64,000 nt of DNA, taken from NCBI GenBank assembly GCA_021324355.1, contig JAJPJD010000044.1, positions 1-64,000 of the forward strand. The letters run 5' to 3'. The notes below the pieces were generated by a model. The model did not search any database. It saw nothing but the letters and a program-made list of their open reading frames with translations, and had not been told where the DNA came from. The translations under genes were made by a program, and so were the position numbers. Shown here in pieces: positions 43,709 to 45,420 of the stretch; position 1 is the stretch's first letter; the number at the start of each line of letters is the position of its first letter. Source of the DNA: Actinomycetota bacterium. Lineage in GTDB: Bacteria; Actinomycetota; Acidimicrobiia; Acidimicrobiales; RAAP-2.

Positions 43709-44125
43709 GTGGCTGGCTTCGTCGGCAGGTACGAGCACTCGCTCGACGCCAAAGGGAGGGTCACGCTGCCGTCGAAGTTCCGCCCGTCCTTCGAGCGGGG
43801 CGGCTACCTGGCCGAGAACCGCGAGGGATGTCTCGCCCTGTGGACCCATGGCGAGTTCGAGCGGCAGATGGCACGCATGCTGGAGCGAGCAGGCTCGGGC
43901 CGGACGGATCGCAACCGGGCGCGCCTGTGGGCCTCAAGCGCGCAGGAGGTCGAACTGGACCGGCAGGGCCGCATCGCCATCGTGGCCCGGCTGCGCCAGT
44001 TCGCACAGCTGGAGTCCGACGTGCTGGTGATCGGGGCCATCGACCGCATCGAGCTGTGGAACCCGGCTCGCTGGGAGGAGCGGGTGCAACCGGCCGAGCA
44101 GTGGTTCTTGGAGGACGAGGACTGA
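43709..44125 (+). CDS. mraZ: Transcriptional regulator MraZ
   Basis: A 138-residue protein with two SpoVT-AbrB-like halves: FVGRYEHSLDAKGRVTLPSKFRP (DxKGRxxLP) and VELDRQGRIAIVARLRQFAQLESDVLVIGAIDRIELW (DxxGRI). MraZ forms a ring and controls the dcw operon by binding repeats just upstream of its own gene, which are visible at 43643-43672. GTG start. It is followed by an unusually structured 299-base gap before rsmH. Confidence 0.95.
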   Translation: MAGFVGRYEHSLDAKGRVTLPSKFRPSFERGGYLAENREGCLALWTHGEFERQMARMLERAGSGRTDRNRARLWASSAQEVELDRQGRIAIVARLRQFAQLESDVLVIGAIDRIELWNPARWEERVQPAEQWFLEDED

Positions 44126-44131
44126 ACTGGA

Positions 44132-44158
44132 CCCCCCGGTGCGGGTGGCGCCGGGGGG
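44132..44158 (+). terminator. GC-rich hairpin just after mraZ
   Basis: CCCCCCGG (44132-44139) and CCGGGGGG (44151-44158) form a perfect 8-bp G/C stem with an 11-base loop, 7 bases after the mraZ stop. There is no T-run, so it may be a pause or attenuator site, or protect the mraZ mRNA end, rather than a strong terminator. Confidence 0.4.
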
Positions 44159-44310
44159 GCACCCAGGCCGATCGGCACACGACCGAGCACACACAGGACC
44201 AGCGCACGACACACGACAAGAGAGGAGCGCACGGGAAGCACGGAGCACGACCAGGACGACCCGTCGGGCCGGTCACGAGCGTCGTCAGCACGCTCGGGCG
44301 CCGGTGCGAT

Positions 44311-44432
44311 CGGTCCATGCGCAGCCCCTCGACCGGCACGGTGGAAGACTCCTCCTCCGCCCTCTTCCCCGTCGGTCGCCAAGGGAGATCTCCTGAGAGC
44401 ACCTCGCCCGTCGAGGGGCTGCGGATGGACCG
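44311..44432 (+). promoter_or_regulatory. Long inverted repeat that buries the rsmH ribosome site and start codon
   Basis: Bases 44311-44333 pair with 44410-44432: 22 of 23 positions are complementary, with one G-G mismatch at 44319/44424. The stem continues with 44335-44337/44406-44408 and 44340-44343/44400-44403, giving 29 pairs over 33 positions with a 56-base loop. The right arm contains GAGGGG (44413-44418) and the ATG of rsmH (44425-44427). The loop holds a pyrimidine-rich stretch and the palindrome GGAGATCTCC (44384-44393). It is probably a cis-acting RNA controlling rsmH translation. A structured 'mraW motif' is known upstream of this gene in actinobacteria; whether this is that motif is not tested. 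Confidence 0.65.
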
Positions 44433-45420
44433 GGACCCCCTCCACGTGCCGGTCATGGTCGCCGAGGTGCTCGAGCTGCTGGCGCCGGTGCCGGCCGGCG
44501 TGGTCCTCGACGCCACGGTGGGAACCGGCGGCCACGCCGCCGCCATCCTGGCTGGCCACCGCCACCTGGCGGTGCTGGGCATCGACCGGGACCCCGAGGC
44601 AGTCGCGGTCGCGGCCGCCCGCCTGGCCCCTTTCGGCCCCCGAGCGGCCCTCGAGCGTGCCCGCTTCGCCGACCTCCAGGCGGTGGTGGGCGAGGCGCGC
44701 GCCGCCGGCCCGGGCCGCTGGCCCGCGACCGGCGAGGCCGCCGGCCCCGACCCGCTCACCGGGGCCCTCTTCGATTTGGGGGTGAGCACCCTCCAGCTGG
44801 AGCGAGCAGAGCGTGGCTTCTCCTACCGGCTGGAGGGGCCTCTCGACATGCGGATGGACCCGACCTCGGGCCGCTCGGCCGCTGCGGTGGTGAACGAGGC
44901 GCCCGAGGAGGCGTTGGTGTCCTGGCTCCAGGCGAGCGGGGAGGGTCGTCTCGCTCGGCGGATCGCCCGGGCGATCGTCGCCGCTCGCCCGATCGCGACG
45001 ACCGGCCAGCTGGCCCAGGTGGTGTCGGCGGCGGTGCCGCCGCCAGCCCGGCGCCGGGGCCACCCGGCCGCCCGGACCTTCCAGGCGATCCGGATCGCGG
45101 TCAACGGGGAGGCCGACGAGCTGGCGGTCGGGCTGCCAGCCGCCCTGGGGCTGCTCGCGCCAGGAGGCCGGTGCCTGGCCATCGCCTACCACTCCGGGGA
45201 GGGCCGCCTGGTGAAGGCGGTCTTCAGCCGCGCCGTCACCGAGGGCTGCGTCTGCCCGCCCGGGCAACCCTGCCGCTGTGGCCGGCAGCGGTCCTTCCGC
45301 TGGGTGTTCCGGGGCTCACGGGGCCCCGGGGCCGCCGAAGTGTCGGACAACCCCCGAGCCTCGAGCGCCCGGTTGTGGGCGGTCGAGCGGTTGGGGGACG
45401 ACCACCCCCGTGGCCAGTGA
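44425..45420 (+). CDS. rsmH: 16S rRNA (cytosine(1402)-N4)-methyltransferase RsmH
   Basis: A 331-residue methyltransferase: HVPVMVAEVLELL, the SAM loop DATVGTGGHAAAIL, GIDRDPEAV, LFDLGVSTLQLERAERGFSYRLEGPLDMRMDP, RTFQAIRIAVNGE and a closing SARLWAVERL are all RsmH hallmarks. The SHQLD-type motif is here GVSTLQLE, as in other actinobacteria. It methylates C1402 of 16S rRNA at the decoding site. The start codon and ribosome site lie in one arm of a long inverted repeat. The stop overlaps ftsL (GTGA). Confidence 0.96.
   Translation: MDRDPLHVPVMVAEVLELLAPVPAGVVLDATVGTGGHAAAILAGHRHLAVLGIDRDPEAVAVAAARLAPFGPRAALERARFADLQAVVGEARAAGPGRWPATGEAAGPDPLTGALFDLGVSTLQLERAERGFSYRLEGPLDMRMDPTSGRSAAAVVNEAPEEALVSWLQASGEGRLARRIARAIVAARPIATTGQLAQVVSAAVPPPARRRGHPAARTFQAIRIAVNGEADELAVGLPAALGLLAPGGRCLAIAYHSGEGRLVKAVFSRAVTEGCVCPPGQPCRCGRQRSFRWVFRGSRGPGAAEVSDNPRASSARLWAVERLGDDHPRGQ

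Follow-up and report, generated by a model that had tools for sequence, protein, structure and literature searches.

We report here a conserved structured RNA between mraZ and rsmH, alongside the genes that open the division and cell wall cluster, in bacteria of the class Acidimicrobiia. The RNA was studied in a window, by which we mean the whole 64,000-nt stretch of DNA that was analysed, taken from a genome of 2.4 Mb in 64 contigs. It forms a three-way junction composed of a long outer stem (P1), a hairpin with the nearly invariant loop CUCCGCCC (P2), and a variable hairpin (P3), and it represents a new RNA family that is conserved through the whole class. Among the matches listed in a search of the titles and the beginnings of abstracts of openly licensed PMC papers, there was no description of an rsmH leader RNA of Acidimicrobiia. 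The locus keeps RNA structure together with reading frame: computation identifies a conserved structure, a masked rsmH start, a kept frame, and an absence of stop codons in most loci in which the element lies near rsmH. We see an even chance that the element is a translated gate coupling rsmH to mraZ, a proposed mechanism that predicts an N-terminally extended RsmH.

Architecture, covariation, and distribution of the element

All features described here lie on the forward strand of the window. The list of open reading frames contains mraZ (43709-44125, 138 aa, GTG start), which served as tblastn query, and rsmH (also named mraW; 44425-45420), which encodes the 16S rRNA m4C1402 methyltransferase and was also identified by a protein search; the latter found rsmH in 145 of 148 genomes of the order. 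A weak resemblance to the c-di-GMP-II riboswitch at 44024-44104, inside the end of mraZ, is probably due to chance and was dismissed, with a score of 23.3 bits far under the threshold of 53.5.

A sequence-only reading of this DNA had noticed a strong inverted repeat at the start of rsmH, and this repeat is real. Of the 33 positions in its arms (44311-44343 and 44400-44432), 29 (88%) form pairs, enclosing 56 nt, and the right arm contains both GAGGGG (44413-44418) and the rsmH ATG (44425-44427). It is the best repeat of its kind in the 64 kb window, compared to at most 25 of 33 paired positions in 12 first-order Markov windows. Folding, which the same reading had called for, gave z = -5.6 for a 136-nt region, and none of 200 shuffles was equally stable.

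The element, at 44311-44432, is larger than first described, and the supposed 56-nt loop contains two more helices. Alignment and covariation place the two strands of P1 at 44311-44336, which includes an in-frame ATG at 44317-44319, and at 44407-44432. P2 occupies 44340-44371, with consensus strands at 44340-44347 and 44364-44371 around a loop at 44348-44363, and in the minimum-energy fold of the window's own sequence its pairing is offset with a bulged U. These positions in P1, P2, and P3 were derived from alignment columns. P3 (44377-44398, from alignment and folds) is small, variable, and missing in some relatives, and can be dispensed with. The palindrome GGAGATCTCC, for which an alternative fold had been suggested, sits in this variable P3 region and is not conserved in aligned relatives.

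When 100 relatives were searched at the DNA level, 68 yielded some match, several of these being short and located elsewhere. Matches at the locus mostly begin at query positions 180-195, where the left arm begins (with a few at 158, 172, or 215), and the spacer after mraZ is not conserved in this search. Of 139 loci, 100 reached a profile score of at least 40, and 81 remained once redundancy was removed; 55 of the 81, picked by hand, were aligned (alignment A1, from which the covariance model R1 was built). The structure supplied to the covariation analysis comprised 40 pairs across P1, P2, and P3. In A1, which is the training set alone, 30 pairs showed two-sided changes, compared to 17.7 in shuffled and 13-22 in slid controls. 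R1 then matched the sense strand upstream of rsmH in 68 of the 80 loci of the order (L072-L151) for which rsmH had been the only criterion of choice (28 of 29 and 40 of 51); some of these loci are training sequences. In the alignment of the 88 strong-hit loci, which was fitted to the model and includes training sequences, 38 of the 40 pairs change on both sides, with 490 such cells versus 122 in shuffles. There, 90.8% of cells are paired compared to 34-50% in slid controls, and the covariation value is 0.426 compared to 0.06-0.13, a level reached by none of 500 shuffles. In distant members, many letters of the stem have changed, yet the stem stays paired in their own folds as a long, near-perfect helix. 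The objection that the stem might show no conservation or covariation in relatives has therefore failed. Covariation is overwhelming, and P1-P2-P3 is a conserved structured RNA.

The most conserved part is the P2 loop, within which CUCCGCCC is at 44355-44362 in the window. Among the loops of the 88 sequences, CTCCGCCC is present in 77 and TCC[GA]C in 87. Two pairing partners for this loop were considered by eye and dropped: the P3 loop, given that P3 is absent in many members, and the GCGGA before the ATG, which changes to GCAGA while the loop is unchanged. In one 16S rRNA, a complement of the P2 loop, GGCGGAG, occurs once. One locus (L147) has the P1 stem together with a longer, different P2 loop without CUCCGCCC. 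In another family, f113 (loci L266-L273), with assemblies of 0.8-1.1 Mb, the GC-rich P2 loop and P1 are kept in AT-rich surroundings and P3 is lost; ACUCCGCCC is kept in all 8 sampled genomes of this family.

R1 detects the element in 211 of 298 genomes at the level of the order and in 165 of 198 at that of the class Acidimicrobiia, numbers that are lower bounds owing to the stricter filters applied. In a sample of 296 genomes from the phylum, 15 carry the element, all of them from the window's own family, order, or class, so that R1 found none outside Acidimicrobiia in this sample. The two R1 hits in the source genome are a single locus on both strands, with 121 bits in sense and 53 bits in antisense orientation, the latter because the stem is self-complementary. 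A scan of 84,980 species genomes for the exact P2 pattern gave 75 stretches, of which 71 have rsmH no more than 700 nt downstream; the remaining 4 are cut at the end of the locus and have mraZ upstream. Most of the 75 records are titled Acidimicrobiia, Acidimicrobiales, Acidimicrobiaceae, Microthrix, or metagenome-assembled Actinomycetota, Actinobacteria, or Actinomycetes. Six (L202, L215, L222, L229, L242, and L261) are titled Bifidobacterium breve or Acidobacteria/Acidobacteriota and have P2 with rsmH just downstream; these titles look mislabelled. The proportions given throughout are uncorrected for relatedness among loci. Apart from the mraW loci, L001-L071 were collected through their DNA similarity to the window, so that the proportions do not amount to a census. 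Membership of the window's family (f1) was typed by hand from kinship tables.

Start burial and the reading frame through the element

For the count of start codons, we classed a locus as near when the right-arm triplet lies within 40 nt of the conserved HxPV core of rsmH, and as far beyond that distance. In all of the 95 near loci (among 145 with a readable rsmH), the arm triplet is in frame with rsmH, and it is ATG in 88, GTG in 6, and AGG in 1. In the 50 far loci, it is ATG in just 28, and its frame is free (23/8/19); the arm ATG is the sole plausible start in some of these loci, and others have starts downstream. The RNA is thus the constant feature, and burial of the start is common but not universal. 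Since elements without an arm start are also conserved, masking cannot be the whole function.

In the window, GAGGGG constitutes the Shine-Dalgarno sequence of the internal rsmH start and is paired within P1. According to the accessibility computation, opening of 44413-44427 costs about 27 kcal/mol, compared to a mean of 11.2 and a maximum of 20.1 kcal/mol at 150 random places, and without the left arm the cost of opening the Shine-Dalgarno sequence and ATG is 9.7 kcal/mol. The earlier proposal that the stem hides the rsmH start accordingly fits the window, but a start in the arm is not found in every locus. The ATG at 44317 was rejected as a general rsmH start, as CATG is kept in 81 of 145 loci and absent in f113.

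Frame analysis of the window revealed a stop-free corridor of 101 codons in the rsmH frame (44122-44424) that runs from the end of mraZ through the hairpin. For the counts of corridors and length changes, near denotes a position within 45 nt of the rsmH core. By this measure, 80 of the 94 near loci have rsmH in the -1 frame relative to mraZ (window's family, 48 of 49; others, 32 of 45), and from the mraZ stop through the hairpin these 80 loci contain no stop in 6029 codons of the rsmH frame, compared to 157 and 75 stops in the other frames. All 24 near loci with a spacer of at least 100 nt between mraZ and P1 are without a stop. The other 14 near loci are off the -1 frame; 13 of them belong to families other than that of the window, and 5 of the 13 contain stops. 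Among the 23 far loci, 11 are in the -1 frame and 12 contain stops.

We examined 29 further loci, which are the 75 scanned by P2 pattern minus 39 already used and 7 without both genes in order, and assigned them as near or far by a fixed distance from P2. In this set, 4 of the 7 near loci and 18 of the 22 far loci are in the -1 frame, and the passage is stop-free in 5 of 7 near loci (the other 2 contain stops) and in 19 of 22 far loci. In a control of 24 loci outside the class, the three offsets occur 10, 9, and 5 times, the stops number 15, 27, and 20, and the rsmH frame is stop-free in 15 of 24, many with short spacers. In f113, a TAG immediately precedes the left arm in 6 of 8 genomes. These genomes consequently cannot use opening by ribosomes and need some other opener.

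An NTGA overlap of stop and start would produce a -1 frame. At the mraZ stop of the window, CTGA (44122-44125) contains a possible CTG start of the rsmH frame (44122-44124), and 7 nt ahead of this CTG, still within mraZ, GGAGG (44110-44114) is a possible Shine-Dalgarno sequence of the overlapping frame. Such an overlap is present in 65 of the 80 near -1 loci (CTGA 38, GTGA 19, ATGA 6, and TTGA 2); in the remaining 15, mraZ ends with TAG or TAA, which offers no overlap start. The 38 CTGA loci, the window included, would have to use CTG at the overlap, which is a poor start codon. A Shine-Dalgarno core lies 4-11 nt before the overlap in 54 of 80 near -1 loci, compared to 6 of the remaining 14 near loci and just 1 of the 23 far loci; the difference between 54/80 and 1/23 (Fisher p = 3e-8) is uncorrected for kinship, and the acidic end of MraZ favors such letters. 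In L275 and L276, which belong to the order and have no R1 match, and in five loci outside the class, the rsmH core follows the overlap by 14-38 nt in the same frame. Based on these arrangements, the overlap start is apparently old, and the element would be located within the 5' portion of the rsmH reading frame. In place of an overlap start, -1 ribosomal frameshifting at the end of mraZ may also apply, above all in the 15 TAG or TAA loci, but inspection by eye identified no classical slippery site.

Within one subclade, 13 loci show plain coding in the rsmH frame over the 12 codons that precede the left arm. The ratio of synonymous to non-synonymous single changes is 272:78 in this frame and 24:310 and 30:308 in the shifted frames, and differences per codon position are 0.098, 0.140, and 0.401. 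This signal led to the general frame test across loci described above. A conserved peptide ending in HI[EQ]RVW(P/L) lies in the rsmH frame about 75 nt before the left arm, and HI[EQ]RVW is conserved in 13 of the 14 loci shown (L012, L016, L025, L027, L028, L048, L049, L054, L055, L056, L060, L064, and L065). In these genera, the peptide suggests that an N-terminal extension of RsmH is under selection. Outside the subclade, 8 comparable pairs of loci gave no sign of protein-type selection on the corridor peptide, with 12 synonymous versus 49 non-synonymous differences. A fixed frame without stops, combined with a peptide that is free to vary, would be expected of a stretch translated only to open the structure, and this forms the ground for a coupling model.

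A proposed translated gate and its alternatives

If the element is a translated gate, folded P1 would bury the internal Shine-Dalgarno sequence and start codon of rsmH. Ribosomes that finish mraZ would start again at the NTGA overlap (CTGA in the window), and their passage along the stop-free corridor and across the left arm, in the rsmH frame, would open P1. This translation would yield an N-terminally extended RsmH, and the exposed internal AUG would then let further ribosomes start, providing a second start. The output of RsmH, and perhaps also of the wall and division genes behind it, would be tied to the translation of mraZ, and the nearly invariant P2 loop would probably be the docking site of a trans-acting factor that tunes the opening of the gate. 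Such a mechanism would require that mraZ and rsmH are co-transcribed. The distance from the mraZ stop to P1 ranges from -10 to 433 nt with a median of 57.5 nt (116 loci, with one out-of-range locus left out), and mraZ ends just 2-35 nt before P1 in 29 of the 116, leaving little room there for a separate promoter. The sequence-only reading had proposed a candidate switch; the stem does mask the start, but in most near loci the hairpin lies in a stop-free frame and may be opened by ribosomes instead of acting as a free-standing switch.

A free-standing regulatory leader, in which a protein, RNA, or small molecule at the P2 loop opens or closes P1 regardless of mraZ translation, is unlikely in our view. 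It would explain why no part is more conserved than the P2 loop (TCC[GA]C in 87 of 88), why this loop is kept in eight small genomes without P3, and why loci without the corridor still have the RNA. However, P1 is very long and stable, its opening at 27 kcal/mol exceeds what a small ligand is likely to pay, and the kept -1 frame and missing stops would be left unexplained. The long, near-perfect helices in distant members and the location of the element close behind mraZ, at the distances given above, would also suit an element of processing or stability, with P1 cut by a double-strand nuclease such as RNase III and the mraZ message separated from that of rsmH. Yet a cut site needs neither a nearly invariant loop nor an open frame through the stem, and in near loci the cut would hit at or near the rsmH start, which renders this explanation quite improbable.

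The two remaining explanations concern the rsmH product itself. P2 could be a decoy of the 16S C1402 region through which RsmH, once bound, represses its own message: in a relative of the same order, the loop block ACUCCGCCCG matches best at C1402 among 1514 16S positions, with 9 of 10 letters. This match was picked after looking, however, and shuffled loops share a 7-mer with the C1402 region in 5.6% of trials. A different stretch of the element matches a different place in 16S rRNA better, the full CCGCCCG is present in just 53 of 88 loops, and the G is replaced by A in several. Moreover, RsmH is described as needing assembled 30S subunits and as acting on these rather than on free rRNA (PMC5053481, PMC6821322). 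We thus regard a decoy as very improbable; in that remote case, RsmH on the CCGCCC loop would shut the gate, and the message would sense the unmethylated small subunits that are left. The conserved sequence could also merely encode an N-terminal extension of RsmH with pairing as a by-product. In agreement with this, 10 of 11 length variants in f1 differ by multiples of three, and there is no stop in the rsmH frame within the element. Against it stand the massive two-sided changes (38 of 40 pairs in 88 loci) and the length changes outside f1, where 14 of 23 near loci with such changes shift the frame and far loci ignore the frame altogether. We therefore reject coding as the sole origin of the conservation, the chance of it being close to negligible.

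Relation to known systems

Translational coupling by a masked ribosome-binding site and an overlap of stop and start is a general principle. The locus resembles it in a stem over the downstream start, an open frame through the stem, and an NTGA at which a possible start, often CTG, overlaps the upstream stop behind a possible Shine-Dalgarno sequence in the upstream gene. A ribosome-binding site and start in a stable stem are found in the window, and 94 of 145 loci have an in-frame ATG or GTG near the core; passage through the stem is stop-free in the window and in 80 of 94 near loci, but not in 12 of 23 far loci. The element differs from ordinary coupling by being a class-wide conserved RNA with a nearly invariant loop, and in that the putative coupling stretch prolongs the downstream gene in frame, by a very variable length.

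UpsM, an sRNA from the 5' leader of the dcw cluster in Rhodobacteraceae (PMC5089854), is likewise a lineage-specific RNA of the division and cell wall cluster. It is described there as lying in the leader before the first gene of the cluster and as arising by Rho-independent termination, whereas the element here differs in position and structure.

The mraW motif (RF01746), of which the sequence-only reading had thought the element a possible divergent member, is also a structured RNA between mraZ and mraW (rsmH) in Actinomycetota, where it is listed for Actinomycetales (Weinberg et al. 2010, PMC2864571). It has been placed upstream of a mapped mraW transcription start in C. diphtheriae (PMC5784534), a table for C. 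glutamicum gives the motif together with an observed 5' UTR for mraW (PMC3890552), and it is counted among the core ncRNAs of mycobacteria (PMC9569102). The comparison does not bear out such membership. No Rfam family matches the element, and the mraW model in particular matched neither the window (with no hit at E <= 10 at the locus) nor any of 8 relatives at E <= 5; conversely, R1 found nothing at E <= 10 in 9 mraW loci. RF01746 matched 10 of 198 phylum genomes, and none of the 17 genomes of the window's own class listed among them. The mraW motif consists of one long hairpin with a ACUUCCCC terminal loop, in contrast to a three-way junction with the CUCCGCCC loop in P2, and the CUUCCCC of the window (44364-44370) lies in the 3' strand of P2 and not in a terminal loop, so that the single hairpin of the mraW motif is not what is found here. 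Furthermore, the mraW motif begins 145-289 nt before the conserved rsmH core, whereas the element described here often holds the start itself. With no cross-match in either direction and a different structure, we reject identity with the mraW RNA. Among 9 mraW loci, four of them from one genus, 8 (L031-L034 and L036-L039) have no stop in the rsmH frame between the end of mraZ and the far side of the motif. The known mraW RNA may thus also be translated, and the two motifs may share their logic.
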